Assembly (NCBI GenBank): GCA_030590165.1
Contig: JAUUZA010000010.1
Coordinates: 1-20,970, forward strand
From: Candidatus Altarchaeota archaeon
GTDB taxonomy: Archaea; SpSt-1190
DNA length: 20,970 nucleotides
Direction: 5' to 3'
Below, piece after piece: positions 3,163-20,874 of the stretch (the stretch's first letter is position 1; every line of letters starts with the position of its first letter). The notes beneath the pieces are model-generated. The model was not told where the DNA came from. It saw only the letters and a list, made by a program, of their open reading frames with translations, and did no database searches. Made by a program: the position numbers and the translations under genes.

Positions 3163-4545
3163 ATGGCTTATGGTGGATATTCATATATTGATAAAAATTA
3201 TAGACCAAAAAAAACAGATTTTGTTACAATTCTTTGGGTAAAGGGAGAATCTACTTTTGAAATGTTGTCCGAGGCACTTGCTGCTGAAAGTTCTGTTGGA
3301 ACTTGGACTAAACTCGCAACCATGAACGATTTCGTTTGGAAAAAACTTCGTGCTCACGTTTTCAAAACCATAAAAGTTTCAGCTAATTCAGGATATGTTT
3401 ACATTGCTTATCCATACGACCACTTTGATTCAAGAAATTTACTCCAAATTTTAGCAAGTATAAGAGGAAATATTTATGGAATGAAAGAAATTCAAGAACT
3501 TAAAATCCTCGATTGGGTAATGCCCGAAAAATTTCAAAAACAATTCCCCGGACCAAAAATTGGGATAAAAGAAATTAGAAAAATTATTGGAACAAAATCT
3601 CGCCCTCATGTTGGAACAATTGTAAAACCCAAAGTAGGGCTCTCAGCAAAGGAGTGGGCGGATGTTGCACAAAAAGCTTTCATGGGTGGTCTTGACATGG
3701 TAAAAGATGATGAAAATCTTGTAAATCAAACGTTTTGTCCATGGGAAGAAAGAGTCATAAGAACTATCGAAGCCGCCGATAAAGCAAAAGATGAATTAGG
3801 TGAGGGAAAAATTTATGTTTCAAATATAACAGATTCAATCCCAAAAATGATTGAACGAATTGAATTCTTAGATGAACATGGATGGAAACAATGTATGATT
3901 GATGTCTATGTAATGGGAATTGCTGGAACTGAAGAAATTTTGAGAGAGCTTCACAAGCGAAAATTTTTGGTTCACGCTCACCGAGCAGGACATGGTGCTG
4001 AAACCAGAGGCCCTTGGGGGGTTGGTTTTAACTTCTGGGAAAAAATTTATCGCTTATTAGGTGTAAGCCAACTTCACACTGGAACTGGTGTGGGAAAAAT
4101 GGAAGGTTCACCCTTATTCATACAAAAATATGGAGAAATCGCAAGCAAACAAAAAATAAAGGGATTTGAACCTCTTTTCTTAAATTTTAAATGGGCAAAA
4201 AATATCAAACCAATGATGCCGGTTGCAAGTGGGGGACTTCATCCAGGACTTGTTGAAGGCGTTACAGCCATATATGGAAAGGACGTAACTATTATGGCAG
4301 GAGGAGGAATTCACGGACATCCTAAAGGCACCTTATATGGTGCAAAAGCTCAGAGGGCTGCTGCTGAAGATGTCAACAAGGGAATTAAATTAAATAAAAC
4401 ACAGAACATCTATCTTCAAGAAGCAATTAAAAAATGGGGATATGTAAGTGGAATTGAAATCAAAAAAAGAATAACTTCAATAAAAAAACTACCAATAAAA
4501 AAAATTGCGAAAGGTGGACTTGAAGCTCTTGATAAATTAAACTAA
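3163..4545 (+). CDS. rbcL: Ribulose-1,5-bisphosphate carboxylase, archaeal form III type
   Basis: This enzyme carboxylates ribulose-1,5-bisphosphate to two 3-phosphoglycerates. In archaea it works in AMP/nucleoside degradation rather than in the Calvin cycle. All catalytic positions are present (spinach numbering in brackets): E42 (E60) in AAESSVGTWT, T47 and W48, N103 (N123), K155 and K157 (K175, K177) in VKPK, the carbamylated K181 with D183 and E184 (K201, D203, E204) in VKDDE, H273 and R274 (H294, R295) in HAHRAGH, H305 (H327), loop-6 K312 (K334) in TGVGKMEG, S356 (S379) and G380-G381. At 460 aa it is slightly longer than typical form III proteins (about 425-445), the excess being a basic C-terminus. 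The HRAGHGAETR segment resembles forms II, II/III and III-a more than III-b, so the subform is left open. No small subunit is present. e2b2 follows after 11 bases in the same operon. Confidence 0.96.
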   Translation: MAYGGYSYIDKNYRPKKTDFVTILWVKGESTFEMLSEALAAESSVGTWTKLATMNDFVWKKLRAHVFKTIKVSANSGYVYIAYPYDHFDSRNLLQILASIRGNIYGMKEIQELKILDWVMPEKFQKQFPGPKIGIKEIRKIIGTKSRPHVGTIVKPKVGLSAKEWADVAQKAFMGGLDMVKDDENLVNQTFCPWEERVIRTIEAADKAKDELGEGKIYVSNITDSIPKMIERIEFLDEHGWKQCMIDVYVMGIAGTEEILRELHKRKFLVHAHRAGHGAETRGPWGVGFNFWEKIYRLLGVSQLHTGTGVGKMEGSPLFIQKYGEIASKQKIKGFEPLFLNFKWAKNIKPMMPVASGGLHPGLVEGVTAIYGKDVTIMAGGGIHGHPKGTLYGAKAQRAAAEDVNKGIKLNKTQNIYLQEAIKKWGYVSGIEIKKRITSIKKLPIKKIAKGGLEALDKLN

Positions 4546-4546
4546 T

Positions 4547-4553
4547 AGGTGAT
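4547..4553 (+). promoter_or_regulatory. Shine-Dalgarno site of e2b2
   Basis: AGGTGAT in the 11-base gap after rbcL, four bases before the ATG at 4557, complements the archaeal 16S 3' end. It decides the start and shows that e2b2 is translated as an internal operon gene. Confidence 0.7.
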
Positions 4554-4556
4554 GTA

Positions 4557-5411
4557 ATGAATACAATTGAAAAAATTGCAAACAAAATTAAAAAAATTGA
4601 GATTCAAGGAGCAACAAAAATTGCATTGTCTTCACTTGAAGTAATTCATGACTTTGCAAAAAAAAATAAAGTTGAAGAAATTCATAAAGGTATTAATTTA
4701 CTTCTCAGCACCCGACCAACTGAACCCTTAATGATTAATACTTTAACTTCACTAAAAAAAATATCAGACCCTTCAGAAATTAGTGAACGCGCGTTTCTAT
4801 TTAAAAAATCAATAAAAAAAAGTATGAATAAAATTGTTGAAATTGGAAGTAGATTAATTGAAGACGGTATGACTATCCAAACTATTTGTCATAGTTCAAC
4901 AGTCGTTAATATTATTAAAGAAGCACGAGATCAAGGTAAAAAAATAAAAGTAATAAATACTGAAACGCGTCCAAGATTTCAAGGAAGAATAACTGCTGAA
5001 GAACTTTACAAAGCAAGAGTTCCAGTTAAGATGTATGTTGATTCAGCAATGTATTCTGCTATGAGTAAAGAAAAAGTTAATATTGCTTTAGTTGGGATTG
5101 ATGCCATTTTTGTTGATGGAAGTATAGCAAATAAAATTGGAACTGGTCTTTTTTCTTTAGCAGCAGAAGCCTTAGAAATTCCATTCTATGCATCAGGACT
5201 CGCATTAAAACTTGATACAGGGTCTTTAATGGCACAATCTGTAAAAATTGAAGAACGTGACCCAAGAGAAGTATGGAGTTATCCAATTAACATTGGAAAT
5301 CCTGCATTTGAAATAGTACCTTCAAAACGAATTAAAGGAATTATCACAGAACTTGGAGTATTACCTCCAACAACTGCACATATTCAGATAGAAAAAGCAT
5401 ATAAAATCTAA
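4557..5411 (+). CDS. e2b2: Ribose-1,5-bisphosphate isomerase (eIF-2B-like family)
   Basis: This enzyme isomerises ribose-1,5-bisphosphate to ribulose-1,5-bisphosphate, the RuBisCO substrate, downstream of AMP phosphorylase. The protein has the eIF-2B alpha/beta/delta and MtnA-type fold. Motifs in order: IQGATKIA (16-23), STRPTEPL (51-58), the catalytic cysteine C111 in CHSSTV, NTETRPRFQGR (134-144), and the catalytic aspartate D182 in VGIDAIFVDG followed by ANKIGT. C111 and D182 correspond to the cysteine and aspartate shown to act in the Thermococcus kodakarensis enzyme. The distinction from eIF-2B regulatory subunits and from methylthioribose-1-phosphate isomerase rests on these motifs and on adjacency to rbcL. 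At 284 aa it is shorter than the Thermococcus protein (about 320), mostly at the N-terminus. It is cotranscribed with rbcL and has a good GGTGAT ribosome binding site. Confidence 0.92.
   Translation: MNTIEKIANKIKKIEIQGATKIALSSLEVIHDFAKKNKVEEIHKGINLLLSTRPTEPLMINTLTSLKKISDPSEISERAFLFKKSIKKSMNKIVEIGSRLIEDGMTIQTICHSSTVVNIIKEARDQGKKIKVINTETRPRFQGRITAEELYKARVPVKMYVDSAMYSAMSKEKVNIALVGIDAIFVDGSIANKIGTGLFSLAAEALEIPFYASGLALKLDTGSLMAQSVKIEERDPREVWSYPINIGNPAFEIVPSKRIKGIITELGVLPPTTAHIQIEKAYKI
5399..5407 (+). promoter_or_regulatory. TATA-like box inside the end of e2b2
   Basis: ATATAAAAT overlaps the last codons of e2b2, 19-27 bases before the ATG at 5426. That ATG has no ribosome binding site. The next gene therefore probably has its own promoter despite a gap of only 14 bases. 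Confidence 0.45.
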
Positions 5412-10535: not shown

Positions 10536-11504
10536 TTACAGAAGTTCCAATGCCCTCTTCATAGTATGACTTATTGCATAAATTTCCCCATTTACTGGGT
10601 CAAAAAAGGCAATCTCATTGTCAATTGCCCATTTTAAGAGTTTAGGATGAACTTCATCAACTGAAATTGCTTCTCTTGATAATTTTTTAACGAACCTAAA
10701 TTCTTTGGCTCCAACTGATTTTAATAAGAATTTCACTCTTGACATTTTTCTTTTTACAAGCGATTCAAGAACTCCTATTCCTCCAGTTGAACGGAAATGT
10801 TGAATTGAAATCCATAAATCAAATGGCCTTCCACCTACAACTGAAAAAACTTTCTTTGCTTTTACTTCATTCATACCTTCTTCTTGAAGCCATTCTAAAA
10901 TATTAGTTTTTGGTAAATCACCAACATACATAAATTCAGATGCTTCTTCAAGTCCTGCTTGTTTCACTATTTCATCAATGAATAAACAATCACTCGTTAC
11001 AATAATGGCATGAGCAATATGCAAACGCTTCGTTAAAGTAACTAAAAAGTTTAAGAGTTGAGCTAAATCTTTTGTATCAATTCCAGAATACTTTAAATTT
11101 TGAATTTCATCAAGAATAAGAACGGGTCGTTTCAATCCCTTTAATTTATTCACTAATGGAGCAAAGGGGTCAAGCTTACCTTCAGCCATCATTTTAATTT
11201 GGTTTGGGTGTAAAACAATTCCATCCTCAACATTACTGTGTCTTAATTTTTTTCTAAAATAATGTCGAACTCTCTCACTAAAACCAGGACGAGGAACAGT
11301 TAAAATTTCATGTAACTCAGTTGGACTTTTTGCCCGAAAATCATAAAGAATGACATCATTTTTAATTTGAGTTGCAAGCTTCATCATTAAAGTACTTTTC
11401 CCACTAGATTTTGGTCCATAAACAAATAAAACGAAGTTTGGGGGAGCATTCAAGATATTTGAGAGTTGCCACAACTCAGCTTCCCTATTAATGAATTTAA
11501 GCAC
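10536..11504 (-). CDS. Archaeal AAA-type ATPase (Arch_ATPase family)
   Basis: This 322-aa P-loop ATPase begins with the family signature FINREAELWQL (residues 4-14). The Walker A is GPKSSGKST (30-38), the Walker B is PVLILDEIQ (127-135), and a sensor-like IIVTSD is near 167-172. A C-terminal winged-helix-like region follows (ESLVKRKMSRVKFLLKS, then ISVDEVHPKLLKWAIDNEI). This is the PF01637 (archaeal ATPase) layout. Members are widespread in archaea, often with unknown partners, and some link to membrane or DNA processes. The start is a GTG at 11504 with a TATA-like box 20-28 bases upstream. It lies directly after the four-gene membrane cluster on the same strand, 34 bases from it, so it may energise that complex, but its own promoter makes this uncertain. 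metG follows. Confidence 0.9.
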   Translation of the reverse strand: MLKFINREAELWQLSNILNAPPNFVLFVYGPKSSGKSTLMMKLATQIKNDVILYDFRAKSPTELHEILTVPRPGFSERVRHYFRKKLRHSNVEDGIVLHPNQIKMMAEGKLDPFAPLVNKLKGLKRPVLILDEIQNLKYSGIDTKDLAQLLNFLVTLTKRLHIAHAIIVTSDCLFIDEIVKQAGLEEASEFMYVGDLPKTNILEWLQEEGMNEVKAKKVFSVVGGRPFDLWISIQHFRSTGGIGVLESLVKRKMSRVKFLLKSVGAKEFRFVKKLSREAISVDEVHPKLLKWAIDNEIAFFDPVNGEIYAISHTMKRALELL

Positions 11505-11538: not shown

Positions 11539-12501
11539 TCATTTTTTAATATCTAAACGATTACCAGTTGCAGCGTTAATATCTTTTATTATCATCCAAA
11601 ATGCCACAAAAACAAGGAAGTCTGCCACGACGGCTATAAGAGTCAAACCAGCAATAAAGAAAACCGGTAGAGCTAATCCATGAAGAATTGGTATTGATGC
11701 AAGGTCAAAACTAAAGAATTTATCAGCAAAATAAAGAAGTATTGCTGCAACAAAAACTAAACCGCTCACCGAACTCACTGTCTTTTTTATTCTCCTTTCT
11801 CCTTTCTCTTTTTTTGTATCATCCCCACTCAAAAAAACACTTCCCAAAAGAATCCGGGAAATCATAAAAAATCCTGCAATCGCACCTAATATGAGAACAA
11901 ACATGAGGATACTCAAAGATATGTCAGATGTGAATCCAAAATTAAGAAAAGTATCCAACCCTATAAATTTAGAGGGAAATACATCAAGAAGATAAAATAT
12001 TGTTGAACTCGACAAAAATCCACCGAAGGGAACACCAGAAACAGGAACTCCATCAATAACAATTGAATTTATTAAACCTAAATTTCCTGCTTTGGCTATG
12101 AACATTACAACTGCAGTTAGTGAAATCATATTTGCAATTTTTTCATCTCCGAATCCATAACTAAACCAATACTTCACAAAATTATAAACGAATCCAGCCG
12201 GGATAAGATATGCAAAAATTATTATAGGATTTCCGGCAATTGAAATCCCAAAGAAACTTTCTAAGAGAGTATTCATTAAAGTATATGCCTGTTTTATGGG
12301 TTCATTAAGAAAAGTATCCCAGAGGAAAATATCAAGTTTCAAATCCTTGTAATATACAATAAGTGAATAAATAAAAAATAAAATTCTACCTTCAAATGCT
12401 TTTTGCTTCGTCATAACATCCTTGGTTGACGAAAAAATTATTTCAACAATCATGAATAAATAAACAAACGACAATACCGTAATGAGAGTTTCAATTATCA
12501 T
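11539..12501 (-). CDS. Polytopic membrane protein of the membrane-complex cluster (320 aa)
   Basis: About eight transmembrane segments are visible: residues 3-24, 39-53, 92-112, 123-139, 158-174, 193-217, 243-263 and 278-305. A charged loop (SGDDTKKEKGERRIKK) lies between the sixth and seventh, and a short basic tail ends in NRLDIKK. Two glycine/proline-rich stretches (GVPVSGVPFGGFL, and GNPIIIFAYLIPAG) may be re-entrant or pore-lining. It has no recognised catalytic motif and no cysteine. It is the last of three closely packed genes (11 bases after the previous stop). A GTGAT ribosome binding site at 12507-12511 supports the ATG at 12501. I recognise no family; a channel or scaffold subunit of the neighbouring complex is inference from context. 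Confidence 0.82.
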   Translation of the reverse strand: MIIETLITVLSFVYLFMIVEIIFSSTKDVMTKQKAFEGRILFFIYSLIVYYKDLKLDIFLWDTFLNEPIKQAYTLMNTLLESFFGISIAGNPIIIFAYLIPAGFVYNFVKYWFSYGFGDEKIANMISLTAVVMFIAKAGNLGLINSIVIDGVPVSGVPFGGFLSSSTIFYLLDVFPSKFIGLDTFLNFGFTSDISLSILMFVLILGAIAGFFMISRILLGSVFLSGDDTKKEKGERRIKKTVSSVSGLVFVAAILLYFADKFFSFDLASIPILHGLALPVFFIAGLTLIAVVADFLVFVAFWMIIKDINAATGNRLDIKK

Positions 12502-12506
12502 TTTTT

Positions 12507-12511
12507 ATCAC
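12507..12511 (-). promoter_or_regulatory. Shine-Dalgarno site of the 320-aa membrane protein
   Basis: GTGAT on the minus strand, five bases before the ATG at 12501, lies within the 11-base gap to the upstream gene. It is the same motif as before e2b2. Confidence 0.55.
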
Positions 12512-12512
12512 T

Positions 12513-13220
12513 TCAAATGTTTCCTCTTCCTTCCTTAAAGTTGTCAACATCACTATTTGCTGTTCCAGCAATAGTAGACCCTTCTCCACGCACATCCTTT
12601 GCGGCACCTATACTAAGTAACCCAGTATAAGCACTAATTATTCTCATCGCTAACATAAATACTATGAAGATAATAAATCCAACCCCTGAAATCATAACAT
12701 TAAGCCAATTTGAAATTAAATCAAAAACATTTATTGCATTCAAAAAGAAAATTGCAATTAAAGTTATTGAAGACTGAAGGAAAAGTTTTGTTGTTTTTGA
12801 AAATGCAAATAGATAACGCATAATATATTCAAGCCAAATAAAAATGAATAATCCTGAAAAAACAAATTTGAAAAGACCCATTACATCCATTCCAAAAACG
12901 GCAGGAAGATATTTGAAAATCAAACTCGTTATAAAAAAACCAAAAAGCACTGAAGGCATATTCCCAAGGCCAACCGCAATATTCAAAATCATCCAGAATA
13001 AAATTAATATAATAAAAAATGCACGTGTAGACGGAAGCTCAAAAACATTGCAGTTATCAGGGTCATCACACCCTTCACTCAAATTCGGTACCAAACCAAA
13101 GGCCTTAAGATTATCAGTTATCATTGGGATAAATTCACCCAAGTCAAAGTCGAGAATGGTTTGTGCATATGAATTTGAAAATAAAAAAAGAAGAGAAAAA
13201 ATTAAGAATTTTTTTCTCAT
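12513..13220 (-). CDS. Membrane protein with signal peptide, membrane-complex cluster (235 aa)
   Basis: A signal peptide (KKFLIFSLLFLFSNSYA, cleavage before QTILDF) is followed by a short acidic extracytoplasmic stretch with two cysteines (SEGCDDPDNCNVFELPS) that could form a disulfide. About five transmembrane helices fill residues 66-205. A small hydrophilic tail (KDVRGEGSTIAGTANSDV) ends the protein. The ATG at 13220 shares one base with the stop of the preceding gene (TAATG). AGGTGAG at 13226-13232 is its ribosome binding site, so it is translationally coupled. The layout of a signal peptide, a small ectodomain and then several helices is reminiscent of channel subunits of secretion or conjugation systems (VirB6/TrbL-like), but I see no sequence motif to prove that. 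Function unknown. Confidence 0.82.
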   Translation of the reverse strand: MRKKFLIFSLLFLFSNSYAQTILDFDLGEFIPMITDNLKAFGLVPNLSEGCDDPDNCNVFELPSTRAFFIILILFWMILNIAVGLGNMPSVLFGFFITSLIFKYLPAVFGMDVMGLFKFVFSGLFIFIWLEYIMRYLFAFSKTTKLFLQSSITLIAIFFLNAINVFDLISNWLNVMISGVGFIIFIVFMLAMRIISAYTGLLSIGAAKDVRGEGSTIAGTANSDVDNFKEGRGNI

Positions 13221-14194
13221 TAATTCTCACCTTGTTTTTTCTTTAGGGCCTCATTAACATTTGACAGGGCTAATGCGCCTCCGACAACATTTGTTACTGA
13301 ATCAACAGTAGACTTGGCAACGCCAGCAGTCATAGTAATCTGTCCTAAAAGAACAGCTAAAATTGCCATGGCAAATATTGCAGCAAGGAAACTCTGCCCC
13401 AAACTCAAACCAACAAAACTCGAAACTGCAACTAAAAGATTTGCAAATGCACCAGTTAATATTGCAATCAAAGACGCAAAAATTGCAATCAATCTCCGTG
13501 TATTTGTTCTGAAGTAAGCAAAGGCCAAAATATCATTCAATAAATAGTAAGTTATTAAGAAAGGAAGCAGACCAAATATGAAGAAACATTGCCATGCTGG
13601 GCGTTTTTCTGTCATGAGTTGAATTGCAATTTTATTTGACTTACTAATACTCTCTTGTTGAATCGCGTTTAAACTTGCAAAGAAAGTATCAGAAGTTATT
13701 GAAACATTACTTCCACCAGTCACATCGTCTTCATCACCAAAACAATGACCTAATTCATAATCACTTTCCCCATCGCAGTTTTCAGTAGCATAATCTATGT
13801 TGTTTTTTACTGTAATCATTTGAATATTTTCTTCAACCCCTACAGTCTCAAGGGAAATTGAGTAAAAATAAGAACTACAATTATTAAGACCTTCTTCATT
13901 TCTCGTCTCATCTGTAGCATCACTTAAACTAAGGTCTTCAACCGCATATCTTATTGGTCCACAAAGCGGGTGATTTCCAGTTATTTCTAAACCACCTGCT
14001 GAATAAATTGACATTGCATAAGGATTAATGAAAGGACAATATCCAACCTCCCCCCCAAAAGCGTTTTCTATATTTTGCCTAAAGCTCAAAAAAGCCTTAC
14101 CGAATGTTGAACTTGGAGAAAATGCAGCCATTGTTCCAAAAATTAAAATCACGCCGAATAGAAGCCAAATAGTGTCTTGAGTCTTCCCTCTCAT
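13220..14194 (-). CDS. Cys-rich ectodomain membrane protein, paralogue B of a tandem pair (324 aa)
   Basis: One N-terminal transmembrane helix (residues 9-26) is followed by an extracytoplasmic domain of about 175 residues, three or more helices (about 202-290), and a short cytoplasmic tail. The ectodomain starts with YCPFINPYAMSIYSAGGLEI and holds further cysteines (HPLCGP, NNCSSYF, ENCDGES, GHCFGD). Just before the next helices is PAWQCFFIFGLLPF, then LLNDILAF. These same motifs, in the same order, are in the gene upstream, so the two are tandem duplicates. The ectodomain has an extra acidic insertion (GHCFGDEDDVTGG) compared with its sister. The ATG at 14194 is preceded by a TATA-like box and no ribosome binding site, so it starts a three-gene operon. 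The family is unrecognised. Confidence 0.85.
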   Translation of the reverse strand: MRGKTQDTIWLLFGVILIFGTMAAFSPSSTFGKAFLSFRQNIENAFGGEVGYCPFINPYAMSIYSAGGLEITGNHPLCGPIRYAVEDLSLSDATDETRNEEGLNNCSSYFYSISLETVGVEENIQMITVKNNIDYATENCDGESDYELGHCFGDEDDVTGGSNVSITSDTFFASLNAIQQESISKSNKIAIQLMTEKRPAWQCFFIFGLLPFLITYYLLNDILAFAYFRTNTRRLIAIFASLIAILTGAFANLLVAVSSFVGLSLGQSFLAAIFAMAILAVLLGQITMTAGVAKSTVDSVTNVVGGALALSNVNEALKKKQGEN

Positions 14195-14210
14195 AAAGGA
14201 AACTGTCAGA

Positions 14211-14226
14211 ACTATCTTATATGTAT
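14211..14226 (-). promoter_or_regulatory. TATA-like box for the three-gene membrane operon
   Basis: The minus strand reads ACATATAAGATAGT within the 51-base gap between the paralogues, 20-30 bases before the ATG at 14194. There is no ribosome binding site, so the transcript is probably leaderless. Confidence 0.5.
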
Positions 14227-14245
14227 TGCGAATGAAAACTTATCT

Positions 14246-15160
14246 TCATTTAAAATAATCCTTAATTGACTTTTGTTTCTTAGCTTTTGGCGAACTTCCA
14301 CTGCTACCAGTTTGTGATACTGCAGAAAGCATTTTTCTTTGAGCAAGCCCAGCAGCAGCTTGCGCAGACATTTTTCTTCCAGCCGCAAAGGCATTACTAA
14401 ATGAAGAAATCCAATTAAGGAGCAATGAAATAAACATGAATATTAACAAAACAATAAGGAAAGTAGCTTGAACACTCATCGATGCAATATGTGCAAGCTG
14501 CCATACAAAATTTGAAAATGTTCCTGTCATTATAGCAAGGAAAGACGTCATTAAAATTATGAGGTATTTCACTTTGTCTCTCAAAGGGGTGAATTGTAAA
14601 ATATCTTTTAAGAAAAAGAACATTGCGAAAAATGGCATTAATCCAAAGAACAACAAACATTGCCAACCTGGAATTTTATCTTTCAAGCTTAATCCAAAAC
14701 CAGTCTTTACACTGGATTCATTCAAACCTTCAATCATTTTACTCGTTGATAAAAATATTTCACTTGAAATTTCGTCCTTACAAGAAAGGGCGTATTCTTC
14801 AGTATCATAATTATATATTGCTGCCATAGATGAACTGCAACTAAACTCAAGATTCCTTTCTTCTTTCCCATAAACATATTCCAATGCTCCATGTATTGGT
14901 GAACTCTTTGTCACTTCAAGTGCACCGGTTGAAAATAATTGAGACATATATGGATTGATATACGGACAATAATCCTTTGTTGTCATACCTGTTAAATTCA
15001 ATTGTTCAGAAAGAAAAGGAGGAATTAAACCACCAAACAATCCGTCAAGCTGTTCTTCCAATTCAGGATTGTCCTCTGCACTACTAGTGAACCACATATA
15101 CACGGAACCAAAAACTATCATCAAAATCAAGGCTAACTTAAGTAAAAAGTCACGCGGCAT
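14246..15160 (-). CDS. Cys-containing ectodomain membrane protein, paralogue A of a tandem pair (304 aa)
   Basis: The topology matches the downstream gene. An N-terminal helix (residues about 6-25) precedes an ectodomain beginning DYCPYINPYMSQLFSTGALEV, with CSSSMAAIY and LSCKDE, then IPGWQCLLFFGLMPFF and LKDILQF leading into three further helices. A cytoplasmic tail rich in Ala, Gln, Ser and Lys (AQAAAGLAQRK... KAKKQKSIKDYFK) follows. The tail is longer and more basic than in the sister protein. I chose the ATG at 15160; a TTG one codon earlier is possible but less likely. The gene is divergent from the giant plus-strand gene, and an AT-rich TATA-like patch lies 21-30 bases upstream. The family is unrecognised. 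Shared cysteines suggest conserved disulfides. Confidence 0.86.
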   Translation of the reverse strand: MPRDFLLKLALILMIVFGSVYMWFTSSAEDNPELEEQLDGLFGGLIPPFLSEQLNLTGMTTKDYCPYINPYMSQLFSTGALEVTKSSPIHGALEYVYGKEERNLEFSCSSSMAAIYNYDTEEYALSCKDEISSEIFLSTSKMIEGLNESSVKTGFGLSLKDKIPGWQCLLFFGLMPFFAMFFFLKDILQFTPLRDKVKYLIILMTSFLAIMTGTFSNFVWQLAHIASMSVQATFLIVLLIFMFISLLLNWISSFSNAFAAGRKMSAQAAAGLAQRKMLSAVSQTGSSGSSPKAKKQKSIKDYFK

Positions 15161-15174
15161 CAAAAAGGTAATAA

Positions 15175-18100
15175 GTGGGTAGCATAAAAGCTTTTAGAGG
15201 GAAAATAGTGAAAATTGATACTTCATTTTGGATGTATTCTGTTGGAGTTTTGGCCGTATTATTTCTTATTGCCTCAATTTTTTTTCTCATAAGTCCAAAT
15301 AATACCCTTTTTACTGCATCACTTGCCATAGCGATTCTGACGGTAATAATCACTTTTCTTTTGAAAAGAAGTATAGAAAAAGGAAGTTCATCTGAAAAAC
15401 TTAAAAAGGGAATTATTCAAATTGGAACTGGTTCACTTGTTTCTGGTGGGGCCTTAATCCTCATAATTTCACTCTTTATTTTCTTCTTTGGTGGCGATCC
15501 AGCCGCAATTCTTTTTGGTTTATTATCTATTGAATTAATTTTAATGGGTTTAATTTTTTCAGGAGCAGGAAAAGGGGGAACAATTGTAACTATCATAGGC
15601 TTAGTTGGTTTTGACGCTATTTTTGTTTTTTTCTTACCTAGCAAATTCCCAATTCTTTCAACCATTCCTCTTGACCCTTGGCTGGGGTTTGCCCTATTAA
15701 TTTTATCTAAAGTTGCCATACTTGGTTTTCTCGCAACAATTGGTTTACAAATATTTCCTGAAAAAACAGGAGACGGAGGATTTGAGATTGCATCAATTTT
15801 TCAAATGCTTTTTGTTTTCTTTTTTGCAGCAATTCTAATAACCGCAATTGCTTTCCCAATATATTTCTTAGTAAGTTATGCAGGAACAGCAAGTGAAACA
15901 ACAACCAGTTTAATTGAAGTTCAAAACCCACTCATTCAAACCTTTCTGACTGATGCATTTCTAGCAGCCGATAGTACTGGAAATGTTTTACTTCAAATCG
16001 CAGAGACTTTTGCACCAAGTGGTGTGGAATCAATTACAATCCCTACTAAAGTTTTTAGGGTTTTTGCAGGGAGTATCTGGTCTGTATTCCTTGGACTACC
16101 TCTCGAATATCCTTCAGGGGAACTTGTTTTGCCAGCAACAATAATTACAATTGAAATTTCTGTTTTAGCAATAATGATGTTTGCAGTTTTCTTCCTCAAT
16201 AGAAACCACTTAATAAATTTTGGAAATATGCAAAAAACATCAAAAGGATGGATAGCTAAAACATATAAAAAACTAGAGGGAGCAGGTTATAGTTATCTTG
16301 AATTAAAAGCAATGAATTTTGTTGATGTGTGGCGTGATTGGTTAACTAACTCAAAACTATTTGGGAGTGAATTAAATGAAATCTCAAATGAAATTAATCA
16401 CTCAATTAATAATGCAAATTCAACAAACTCAAAACAAACAAAAGCAAAATTAACAGATTTAGTTTTAAAATTACAAAAAGTAAAAACAAATTATCTCAAA
16501 GATTTAACAAATATGTCCTTTGCAACAGTAATGGATTTTTTCATTTGGACTCCTACTATGGTGGTTTTTTATCTCGGTGTTTTAATTATTTCAACATTAA
16601 TAATGTGGTTACAAACTTTTGATGCTCTCAATTTTCTAACAATATTTCCACCTTGGACGCCCCTCTTCCTCGGATTAATGGTATTATGTGTCTGGTTATG
16701 GAGATCAATTTCACTTCTTGCAAAGAGAATGTATAGCGTGACTATGACTATGTTACCGGGGACACTTCAATATGTATATAATCTCCTTTTCATCTCAGAA
16801 GAAGCAAGTTTAAGCGGTCTTGCCATACTTACGGCTTCTTTAATTTCTTTAACTCTTCTTTCACTCGGGGTCGTATGGGGATTGAGCTTTGGAACTCTTC
16901 TTTTAGTTCTTGTTCTTTTTGTTTTATTATCGGCAGTACTAATGCTCCTTTCTAAAAAATTCTTTGAACTTGCAGGAACTTCATTTGTATTCATATTCAT
17001 AATTCGAGCAATTATGAGTACACTTGAAAGTTCAGGAATGGGAATAACTCTTTTTGATATGACTTTATCTAATTCACTTTCAATCTTACTTTACTTAACT
17101 GTTTTTGTGTTCTGGTTTGATTTTCTTGTTCACTTATTTTTGATAGCTTCATTCAAGGCGACAAAAAATATATTCAGTTTAGTTGAGTCCATTTCACTTC
17201 CTTCCTTTGGTGGTCCTTCAGAAGAAATGATGTTAACTACAGGAAAAACAAGTGCGAAAAACACTGAAAAAATGATTGATAAACTTGTTGATGATTTGGT
17301 TGAAAAAAGTACAAAAAGAACCTCTGAAATGACAAAACAGACTGGAAAAGCATACACTGCAATTAAAGATGCGGAAGGTAATGCAATCATTTTACCGAAT
17401 AAAATAAAAAAAATCTCTGACTCTGTCAAAGAAGCGCAAATCCAAGCATACAAAGTTACTGGAAAAAACAAAAGAAAGGGCAAAGAAGCAACATACGACA
17501 TTTTAAAAACGACAAAACAAGTAATAATTACAGATAAATATGGAAACACAACGATGGTTCCACACACTGGCCCTCTTGGCGATTTAGGTAAATTTATTGC
17601 AACACATCTCAAACTTCCCTCCTTCAAAAAAAACAGGGTTGAAGCTATTGGAACACCCAGTTTAGAAAGTTTAACTAATATAAAAGACGATGACGCATTT
17701 AAGAACACTTTTAACTTTATGGAAACAGCAAAAGTTGGGATGGACGGTCATGTTTATTTTAATGGCTTAGAAAAATATGGAAGAATTAATCGAAAAGGAG
17801 ACATTTCACTTATTGATAAAGAAACCTTTGACAAAACAGCAATAAATTATAAAAGCGATGTCGGAGCTATTTTGAAACAAATAAGACCAAGTGAAAACAC
17901 CAATCAAATATCAAATGAAATTAAAAAAAGGATAATTCTTGAAAAGCACCACCCAGGTTTTGGTTCAGCCCATAATTTACTTAAAATAGACGATAACAAA
18001 TTTGAGTTTTCAAACGAAGGAATAACTAACTTTAAAAAAAGAAAAGAATTAATTTATGAAAACAAAATGAAAAATTTTAATTTTGATAATGTTTTCAAAG

Positions 18101-20874
18101 AAAGTGTTCCAGGACAATATATTGAAATGCTTACGACAGGCAACACAAAAATGTTTCTAAAAATAAAAAATTCATATAAAAAAGGAAAAGATGAGGTCAA
18201 AACCTTCCAAATGGGGGATGATGATGGTTCTTCTCTTTTTTCAGTTAAAAATCCAAGAGGTATGGATATAGATAATTTTCAAAATATAATGAATAATTTG
18301 TCTAACGCAAAAATTAATGGGAAATCAATCAATTTAAAAGATACCACAAACTTAAAACGAATTTTAAGAGGTCAAACAAATCAGATGCTTAATATAAAAG
18401 ATGAACAAGGAAACTCAATTGAAGTTTCTCTTGCTAATCAAAAATTTGGGAGACGCGGTCGTTTCATTAATCGGTTCCGTCCTGGTTCACAACAAATTTT
18501 GAAAATTAAATCAAAAGGAAGTGAATTAACTTTTAACAGTGAAAAAAGTTTCGGAAAATTTGTAGAATCTTCAACTCATTTCAAAGGTCTAAAGAGAAAA
18601 CTATCTCAACCAAAAAGAGCAAGCAATACTTTAAAAAATGCAATATTAACACTAAAAAGACAAAATAAAAAAATTTCCACTTCTAACTTAAACGAACTTG
18701 TTGAAGTTGTTAAGTTAGACCAACAAACAATTGAAAAACTTGAAAAGTTAGACCAAGAATTCAAAAATGATTTAGAAGGTTTTGGTTTAGTAGCAAGATT
18801 TTTAGGGGATTCTTCAAACATCGAAACCCCAAATAAAAAAAATCAAAAATCTTTTGAAAAATTTTTAGAGAAACAAAATTTATCTGAAGAAGCAAAAAAG
18901 AACGCACTACCTAAATTAGGTGACTATTTTAAAAATAAAGAAGAAAACTTGGAAAAAAATAAAGATAGAAGAGATAAGATTCTTTCCAATTTAGAAGACA
19001 AAAACAAATCAAAACAGGAAATCTTAAGAGAGGTTTTTAAAGAAGTTCAAAAATCGGAAGATTATTCTCCACGACACGACACAAAAATAAGAAGAGCAAT
19101 TGAAAAAAAATTTAAAAATTTATCTGATGATGTTTTTAATGAATTAGAAGTTGGACTTATCTTAAGAGATGCTGGTAACGGCACTATTGACCCCAACTCA
19201 ATTGAAAATTCAATAAATAACATTCTTCCCAAACAAAAGTTAATTTCTAATTTAAAATCTCAAAAAACTCAAGGTGACTTTTTAGAAAACCAAAAAGAAA
19301 ACCGAACAAAATGGAAAAAAGATGCAGATAAAATATTCGAAACAACTTCAATCAAGGAAGGTGATTTTTCATCTGAACTTGATTCAACAGAAAAAGAAGA
19401 CCCTCCAATTTTTTACGAAAAAACGCCAAAAGAAAAACTTAAAGTTACAATTGAGAAAGGAGAAAAATTGTTGAAAAAATTAAAATCTAAGAAAACAGAA
19501 ACAAGTGAATCAATATCAAGTTCAATAGACGAAGAAACTCAACAAAAATCAACCGAGGCTCCCGTGGAAGTTCGTGCAGAAAAAATATTAAAAGAAATTC
19601 TTGATAAAAAATCAGCTGAAAAACAAAATGTCGTGATTGAAGAAAAGCTTCAAAAAGAACCAATTAAACTTGTTGAAAAAAAGCAAGTTGAAAGTTTAAA
19701 ACGAGAACCAACCAAAACACCTGATATATTAACTCCGCCTGCTTTAACTAAAGATAATAAGCAAAAGGAAACTATCTTTCCAGAAACAGAAAAAGGGTTT
19801 AAAGAGAGAGACAAACGTCGAAAAATAGACTACCAAAAAGCAGTGAAAGAAGCTAACATTGAAAACGCTAGAATTGAAGAAAATTACATAAAAGACAGAA
19901 ATCTTGCTTATGAAGAGAATAAAAAAATAGATGCCGCAGATAAAGTTTGGATGAAACGAAAACAAAAACCAACTGTTAGTGTCGACATCAAAACAAACAG
20001 AAATGGCTTAACCGAAGAATTCAGAAACACCTTATCAAAAAGTAGTGTAGATGAAATAAAAATATTACAAGAGGAAATAATACGTAAAAATACACAAAAA
20101 AAAGAAGGCAACACTTCAGGTGAAGACTTAACTAAACAAAATATTGATGACATAATTGAAATTCACGCTGGAAATATTAAGCCACCACGTGAAAAACTAA
20201 CTTTTTTTCAAAAAAGAAAATTAAGACAAGATGAAAAATCAAAACAAAAACAAATCGAAATAAATAAACATAACGAAGAAGTAGCTAAAAGAGCTAAACA
20301 AAATCGTAAAGAACGCTCTGAACAAAAAGAAGGGTATAAAAAAAGAAAACAAGAAGATAAAAAAATTGAAAGCCTAAAAACTGAAGCTAAAAATAAAGCT
20401 GACTTAGAATTTGAAAAAAATCAGGATCGAGGCAGATTACATGAAATTAAAGAAGAAATAAAAAGAAAAATATCAGAAAGTTCAGACCCACTCGAAATAC
20501 AAAAGTTAACTATTGAATTCAATGCATTCGACACTAAATATGATGAAATAGGAAAAAAATTTCAAGAAGAAAAACTCAAGCGCGAAGAAAACGCAAAAAA
20601 ACAATCAAAAAAAACAGAAAGAAAACTACAAAGACAAAAGATTAGATCTAAATTATTTGGAAAAAGAAAATCAGGAAACAAATCTCCACATTTAGATAAC
20701 CTTAAGATAAGTCAAAAATCAGGAAGTTCAGACAGAAACAAAGCTATTGAAAAAGAATTAAATAAATTCCCAGAACCACTATCTGGAATTCCATCATCAG
20801 AACCAACAACCGAACCAAGTTCAAAAAAGGAAGAATCAACCCCTTCAAAAAAGAAAAAGCTGCTAGAAGGCTAA
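15175..20874 (+). CDS. Giant polytopic membrane protein with long charged cytoplasmic tail (1,899 aa)
   Basis: The first 660 residues contain about 14 predicted transmembrane helices (near 20-40, 44-63, 85-106, 110-130, 134-154, 168-193, 208-235, 319-341, 450-478, 493-515, 545-567, 570-592, 597-616, 635-660). An extracytoplasmic-looking loop spans 236-318 and a charged amphipathic loop spans 342-449. The remaining 1,240 residues are hydrophilic, rich in Lys, Glu, Asn and Ser. They include a probably folded part at about 680-1150 (for example MDGHVYFNGLEKYGRINRKG) and long coiled-coil stretches later (such as EREEKLKREENAKKQSKK-like heptads), and end in a Ser/Pro/Thr-rich tail (SSEPTTEPSSKKEESTPSKK). 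There is no P-loop or other enzyme motif. The frame is open without frameshift over 5.7 kb. The GTG at 15175 follows an AGGT; the GTG at 15208 fits the TATA spacing better. I recognise no family. A large scaffold or surface-machine component is inference. Confidence 0.85.
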   Translation: MGSIKAFRGKIVKIDTSFWMYSVGVLAVLFLIASIFFLISPNNTLFTASLAIAILTVIITFLLKRSIEKGSSSEKLKKGIIQIGTGSLVSGGALILIISLFIFFFGGDPAAILFGLLSIELILMGLIFSGAGKGGTIVTIIGLVGFDAIFVFFLPSKFPILSTIPLDPWLGFALLILSKVAILGFLATIGLQIFPEKTGDGGFEIASIFQMLFVFFFAAILITAIAFPIYFLVSYAGTASETTTSLIEVQNPLIQTFLTDAFLAADSTGNVLLQIAETFAPSGVESITIPTKVFRVFAGSIWSVFLGLPLEYPSGELVLPATIITIEISVLAIMMFAVFFLNRNHLINFGNMQKTSKGWIAKTYKKLEGAGYSYLELKAMNFVDVWRDWLTNSKLFGSELNEISNEINHSINNANSTNSKQTKAKLTDLVLKLQKVKTNYLKDLTNMSFATVMDFFIWTPTMVVFYLGVLIISTLIMWLQTFDALNFLTIFPPWTPLFLGLMVLCVWLWRSISLLAKRMYSVTMTMLPGTLQYVYNLLFISEEASLSGLAILTASLISLTLLSLGVVWGLSFGTLLLVLVLFVLLSAVLMLLSKKFFELAGTSFVFIFIIRAIMSTLESSGMGITLFDMTLSNSLSILLYLTVFVFWFDFLVHLFLIASFKATKNIFSLVESISLPSFGGPSEEMMLTTGKTSAKNTEKMIDKLVDDLVEKSTKRTSEMTKQTGKAYTAIKDAEGNAIILPNKIKKISDSVKEAQIQAYKVTGKNKRKGKEATYDILKTTKQVIITDKYGNTTMVPHTGPLGDLGKFIATHLKLPSFKKNRVEAIGTPSLESLTNIKDDDAFKNTFNFMETAKVGMDGHVYFNGLEKYGRINRKGDISLIDKETFDKTAINYKSDVGAILKQIRPSENTNQISNEIKKRIILEKHHPGFGSAHNLLKIDDNKFEFSNEGITNFKKRKELIYENKMKNFNFDNVFKESVPGQYIEMLTTGNTKMFLKIKNSYKKGKDEVKTFQMGDDDGSSLFSVKNPRGMDIDNFQNIMNNLSNAKINGKSINLKDTTNLKRILRGQTNQMLNIKDEQGNSIEVSLANQKFGRRGRFINRFRPGSQQILKIKSKGSELTFNSEKSFGKFVESSTHFKGLKRKLSQPKRASNTLKNAILTLKRQNKKISTSNLNELVEVVKLDQQTIEKLEKLDQEFKNDLEGFGLVARFLGDSSNIETPNKKNQKSFEKFLEKQNLSEEAKKNALPKLGDYFKNKEENLEKNKDRRDKILSNLEDKNKSKQEILREVFKEVQKSEDYSPRHDTKIRRAIEKKFKNLSDDVFNELEVGLILRDAGNGTIDPNSIENSINNILPKQKLISNLKSQKTQGDFLENQKENRTKWKKDADKIFETTSIKEGDFSSELDSTEKEDPPIFYEKTPKEKLKVTIEKGEKLLKKLKSKKTETSESISSSIDEETQQKSTEAPVEVRAEKILKEILDKKSAEKQNVVIEEKLQKEPIKLVEKKQVESLKREPTKTPDILTPPALTKDNKQKETIFPETEKGFKERDKRRKIDYQKAVKEANIENARIEENYIKDRNLAYEENKKIDAADKVWMKRKQKPTVSVDIKTNRNGLTEEFRNTLSKSSVDEIKILQEEIIRKNTQKKEGNTSGEDLTKQNIDDIIEIHAGNIKPPREKLTFFQKRKLRQDEKSKQKQIEINKHNEEVAKRAKQNRKERSEQKEGYKKRKQEDKKIESLKTEAKNKADLEFEKNQDRGRLHEIKEEIKRKISESSDPLEIQKLTIEFNAFDTKYDEIGKKFQEEKLKREENAKKQSKKTERKLQRQKIRSKLFGKRKSGNKSPHLDNLKISQKSGSSDRNKAIEKELNKFPEPLSGIPSSEPTTEPSSKKEESTPSKKKKLLEG
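15181..15190. promoter_or_regulatory. Possible bidirectional TATA-like patch between divergent membrane genes
   Basis: AGCATAAAAG lies 21-30 bases before the minus-strand ATG at 15160. It also lies 18-27 bases before an in-frame GTG at 15208 on the plus strand. One AT patch could position both leaderless transcripts. If so, the plus-strand protein starts at 15208 rather than at the GTG at 15175. Confidence 0.4.

Follow-up and report, generated by a model that had tools for sequence, protein, structure and literature searches.

Among the closest described systems are the archaeal type IV pili and Tad-like systems (Makarova et al. 2016, PMC4858521; DPANN islands of Makarova et al. 2019, PMC6393860), in which a motor ATPase and a FlaJ/TadC platform are accompanied by fast-evolving accessory genes that mostly code for pilins or for a few membrane proteins. 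The DPANN pilus loci are full of unannotated genes, those shown having been taken for pilins (PMC6393860). For cluster 2 DPANN and Undinarchaeota, Hamm et al. 2024 reported a pair of conserved loci that combine CpaF, TadC and coiled-coil proteins; proteomics confirmed them in part, and involvement in host interaction was raised as a possibility. Pilus-like loci with coiled-coil proteins have already been proposed as candidates for DPANN host attachment (PMC11291902). Finally, cryo-tomography has revealed a DPANN attachment organelle, a large envelope structure with a cone, a portal and a filament or tube, whose protein make-up is described as unknown (PMC11420986, PMC11104419).

The locus analysed here resembles the archaeal type IV pili and Tad-like systems in its linkage to a motor ATPase and FlaJ/TadC and in its fast-evolving accessory genes (PMC4858521, PMC6393860) but, unlike archaeal type IV pili, it brings in a large paralogous polytopic set together with a giant protein with a predicted cytosolic tail. 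By profile comparison, three members of the paralogous set lie in the window and more at a second locus. As in the loci of Hamm et al. 2024 (Fig. 4), which recur in several DPANN lineages, a T2SSE/CpaF-type ATPase, a FlaJ/TadC platform and coiled-coil genes are found together, whereas the polytopic families of the present set are not mentioned in the accessible text and legend of that paper (PMC11291902). Matched by gene make-up and not by sequence, the DPANN-wide locus described below is probably the same machine. The attachment organelle was shown in Nanobdellota and not in this phylum. No description of the polytopic families was found in passages of the open literature, subscription journals, figures and supplements lying outside the scope of that search. 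On balance, we lean towards the view that the five genes encode candidate lineage-specific membrane subunits of a DPANN-wide type-IV-pilus-like machine.

The window, the whole 20,970-nucleotide stretch that was analysed, is contig C21 of a 724-kb genome (64 contigs, 88% complete). The original prediction had described four membrane genes on the minus strand, divergent from a 1,899-codon gene, and the ORFs and their coordinates are as claimed (Table 1). On the minus strand, the 305- and 324-aa genes are separated by 51 bp, the 324- and 235-aa genes overlap by 1 bp and the 235- and 320-aa genes are 11 bp apart; the 320-aa gene is followed after 34 bp by an ATPase_2 gene and, after a further 31 bp, by MetRS, all on the same strand. 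An AAAGGT-like ribosome-binding motif precedes the GTG start of the giant. A simple hydrophobicity scan, rather than a trained predictor, gave transmembrane (TM) counts of four for both the 305- and the 324-aa proteins, six for both the 235- and the 320-aa proteins and 14 for the giant. Since gene order and frame recur in relatives at an identity of 57% or less, these are not chance ORFs. Elsewhere in the window, at 3163-5411, a RuBisCO-like large subunit (form III by context) and, after it, a candidate eIF2B-type ribose-1,5-bisphosphate isomerase were identified by eye; such a pairing belongs to the AMP pathway of many DPANN archaea.

Table 1. Features of the membrane-protein set and its neighbour (positions in the window).
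Feature	Position	Strand	Basis or remark
ATPase_2 (PF01637) protein	10536..11504	-	same operon in the window's family only
320-aa protein, family A2; about six TM	11539..12501	-	ORF, profile
235-aa protein, family A5; signal peptide, about five TM; distant third superfamily member	12513..13220	-	profile comparison
324-aa protein, family A1, paralogous to the 305-aa protein; Cys53 and Cys203 conserved	13220..14194	-	ORF, alignment
305-aa protein, family A1; N-terminal TM, ~140-aa ectodomain, three TM	14246..15163	-	ORF, TM scan
Gap between the divergent start codons of the 305-aa gene and the giant	15164..15174	.	11 bp
Giant, 1,899 aa; 14 TM (residues 22-655) and charged, predicted cytosolic tail	15175..20874	+	ORF, hydrophobicity scan
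Second TM module of the giant (about residues 372-690), its best-conserved part in the phylum	16288..17244	+	alignment A8, profile search, blastp to L003
Hydrophilic K/E-rich tail of the giant	17140..20871	+	composition

The 305- and 324-aa proteins, which had been taken for a pair of paralogues, are indeed 24% identical and share one topology: an N-terminal TM segment, an ectodomain of 140-180 aa, three TM segments and a cytosolic end. Cys53 and Cys203 are retained in 12 of the 13 members of the 305/324 family, even where they lie 14-23 residues apart, which suggests a disulfide between them. The signal peptide of the 235-aa protein is of the Sec type. Comparison of the 320-aa family with that of the 235-aa protein gave an hhalign probability of 65, and kinship of the 320-aa protein to the other window proteins is only suggestive.

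For the giant, both the hydrophobicity scan and the composition agree with the original prediction of about 14 helices and about 1,240 residues of charged tail, residues 691-1899 consisting of 17% K and 10% E. The N-terminus and the tail are predicted to be cytosolic because the loops carry 22 K/R on one side of the membrane versus one on the other. The very long tail, although present, proved to be restricted to the window's own taxonomic family: homologues were detected in G004, G005, G008 and G009, and those of G008 and G009, from another family, are 584 and 643 aa long, with tails of about 150 aa. Tail similarity to the homologue in L003 (a contig of genome G005) fades at ~residue 876, or at ~1116 with the low-complexity filter of blastp switched off. 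By profile search, the second TM module is present in five of ten phylum genomes, the window's genome included, and was not found in about 190 archaeal genomes outside the phylum; in two further phylum genomes, a membrane ORF stands head-to-head at a contig end. In L003, one in-frame stop with an ATG directly behind it (L003:7599-7604) divides the homologue into ORFs of 417 and 2,024 aa, the break lying in the loop between both TM modules; this is either a gene fission or a sequencing or assembly change.

As supposed, the window proteins fall in no characterised family: for none of the five was there a credible match in Pfam, NCBIfam, PHROG or PDB sequences, the PDB profile searches being run with three alignments, and a scan of viral contigs found no relative. 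Sub-threshold matches to T4SS_pilin, PRD1_DD, HCO3_cotransp and LMWPc were dismissed as composition noise, being hardly common to the homologues checked. AlphaFold models of the 324-aa protein (pLDDT 40.5) and of residues 1-704 of the giant (pLDDT 37.6), built on alignments of 3-4 rows, were unusable. In about 384 archaeal genomes outside the phylum, there was no credible member of either the 305/324 or the 320-aa family; three very weak matches to the 305/324 profile there (E 1.6e-4 to 7e-4) were judged to be noise, and two of them (L081, L082) lie in ordinary gene neighbourhoods.

Within the phylum, by profile search, the 305/324 family occurs in all ten genomes and the 320-aa family in nine; in G007 neither the 320-aa protein nor the giant is detectable. 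The window genes are conserved together, with their order kept in the window's family and partly in two others. The whole arrangement is retained in L003 (DPANNHV_H2.bin.121, annotated as Ca. Altiarchaeota), where the split giant diverges from genes for proteins of 355, 318, 280 and 399 aa, ATPase_2 and MetRS. Downstream of the giant, G004 and G005 have a gene that resembles the one for translation initiation factor aIF5B (L079:6470-6889, L003:2-1435); in the window's family the set is thus framed by translation genes, the aIF5B-like one on one side and MetRS on the other. A small gene of ~100-110 aa with one or two TM segments lies inside the set in G009 (L027:5509-5808) and G007 (L031:11400-11738) and is missing from it in the window's family.

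The second locus lies on contig C13 of the window's genome and encodes membrane proteins of 315 (P315), 273 (P273), 178 (A4), 111 and 73 aa, the 178-aa protein being of the 5-TM A4 family. The P315 family aligned with the P273 family at an hhalign probability of 98, with the 305/324 family at 97.9 (E 3e-13) and with the 235-aa family at 84. FlaJ and the giant, compared as controls with the superfamily profiles, gave 2 or less, and among 547 ORFs (151 with at least three TM segments) no unrelated polytopic ORF was matched. Hence, to judge from these profiles, the 305-, 324- and 235-aa proteins form one paralogous membrane superfamily with P315 and P273. The A4 family is tied in through intermediates (probability 62-76), its direct comparison with the 305/324 family being insignificant (6-9). 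The 320-aa protein and the giant lack such profile similarity to P315 and P273 and are linked to the remaining parts by synteny only. Beside the C13 locus (L030:4053-4978), and at the same place in L033 and L125-L127, there are two further conserved genes. One codes for a secreted, roughly 200-aa protein that has a C-terminal TM segment and the cysteine motif GESCMN..DC..C, the other for a single-TM protein of roughly 100 aa that is rich in proline; both products may belong to the outer portion of the same machine.

We also looked at how the set is linked to motor genes. In all three genomes from other families (L027, L028, L031), P315/A4-type genes directly adjoin the set or a portion of it. 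The cluster of G009 is the most extensive: the 320-aa (A2) and 235-aa (A5) families, the small gene and the 305/324 family (A1) on the minus strand are followed by the giant, P315, A4 and a second A4 on the plus strand, then by two coiled-coil genes (minus) and a 760-aa T2SSE-family ATPase (plus). In G002, G004 and G006, P315/A4-type genes lie near a coiled-coil gene. Of 394 archaeal genomes, 85 have the A4 family (76 of these lie outside the phylum) and 86 the coiled-coil family (E 1e-14 or better), with both present in 83; the two genes lie within 6 kb of each other in 52 of 66 non-phylum genomes. The ATPase and a double FlaJ/TadC were present as well in ten of 12 such loci inspected, and single-TM pilin-like proteins were common there. 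A locus of T2SSE ATPase, double FlaJ/TadC, coiled-coil pair and tandem 5-TM proteins is thus present in about 85 of the 394 genomes. The window's own genome carries every part, P315/A4 on C13, the two cytosolic coiled-coil proteins on C16 and, on C53, a T2SSE ATPase adjoining a 643-aa double FlaJ-like protein and flanked by small pilin-like proteins with a single N-terminal TM segment; no window protein looks like a pilin. This 0.7-Mb genome has three T2SSE ATPase loci with FlaJ/TadC partners (C20, C53, C60), an unusually heavy investment in pilus-like machines.

The pilus-machine reading thus draws on the homology of the 305/324 and 235-aa families to the P315 family, the contiguity of the set with P315/A4-type genes in every other-family genome, the G009 cluster running from the set to coiled coils and ATPase, the neighbourhoods of G002, G004 and G006, the co-occurrence and adjacency of the A4 and coiled-coil families, mostly with ATPase and FlaJ, and the presence of all parts in the window's genome. 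It is weakened because the set was never seen beside a T2SSE ATPase in its own family and the full chain is contiguous in G009 alone (several phylum genomes are fragmented), because the link from the 305/324 to the 5-TM family is indirect, because the 320-aa protein and the giant are joined to it by synteny only, and because G007 is without detectable copies of both. The same separation favours an independent phylum envelope complex, serving transport, membrane organisation or surface-layer anchoring, made of duplicated superfamily members and not coupled to a pilus-like motor: within the window's family the set forms an operon of its own, separate from the motor genes and beside ATPase_2 and MetRS, the 305/324 family goes back as far as the phylum itself, and one genome alone joins the set to the T2SSE ATPase. 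Superfamily membership and the contiguity with P315/A4-type genes outside the window's family speak against such independence, which we regard as rather unlikely. In summary, the idea of one undescribed complex holds in so far as the proteins are undescribed, conserved together and probably part of a larger envelope complex, but not as a self-contained five-protein machine, since paralogy and linkage point to the second locus and the DPANN-wide motor.

Extended VirB6 proteins of type IV secretion systems are polytopic with a very long hydrophilic extension, and the giant, with its huge hydrophilic tail, resembles them. A Ced/VirB-type system for type IV secretion or conjugation, in which the giant would play an extended VirB6-like role, would also accommodate the sub-threshold T4SS_pilin match of the 320-aa protein, yet that match appears in one of eight homologues, the giant has no VirB6/TrbL match, and the TraG/VirB4-type ATPase (PF19044) is absent from the 88%-complete genome, in which controls were detected, so that this system is very improbable. 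The original prediction had suggested the neighbouring ATPase_2 as energiser. The gene lies on the same strand as the 320-aa gene and keeps its place next to it in G002, G004, G005 and G006; however, MetRS is an equally conserved neighbour where the contig allows, and the sets of G007, G008 and G009 have no ATPase_2 beside them. Proteins of the ATPase_2 family are usually interpreted as P-loop proteins with signalling or regulatory functions. A complex powered by ATPase_2 is hence hardly to be expected: the gene adjoins the set in one family only, as MetRS does, the linked motor is instead the T2SSE-family ATPase (on C53 in the window's genome), and the ATPase_2 protein is probably a bystander or regulator.

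Returning to the pilus-like machine, from the computed conservation, paralogy and gene linkage we infer a physical complex in which the T2SSE ATPase would drive the FlaJ platform and so extrude pilin-like subunits from the membrane. Around this platform, the paralogous polytopic proteins would form a membrane collar with their ectodomains outward, the coiled-coil pair would couple the motor to the collar, and the giant could act as a cytosolic scaffold or gate attached to it. A surface or host-contact role of the set is plausible on these grounds. More specifically, and with little confidence, the paralogous polytopic proteins and the giant might be the membrane core of a DPANN apparatus for cell-to-cell contact or transfer, driven by the pilus-type ATPase; if so, they would be among the still unidentified components of DPANN attachment structures.

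To the pilus-like loci already proposed, the present analysis adds the polytopic membrane proteins that accompany the motor, with the 5-TM family and its coiled-coil partner occurring together in 83 of 394 genomes, as well as an extension, particular to this phylum, that includes a giant scaffold-like protein. The set offers named candidates for the way in which DPANN cells make contact with others or exchange material with them, and specific genes are now available to tag, delete, or seek in tomograms and proteomes.
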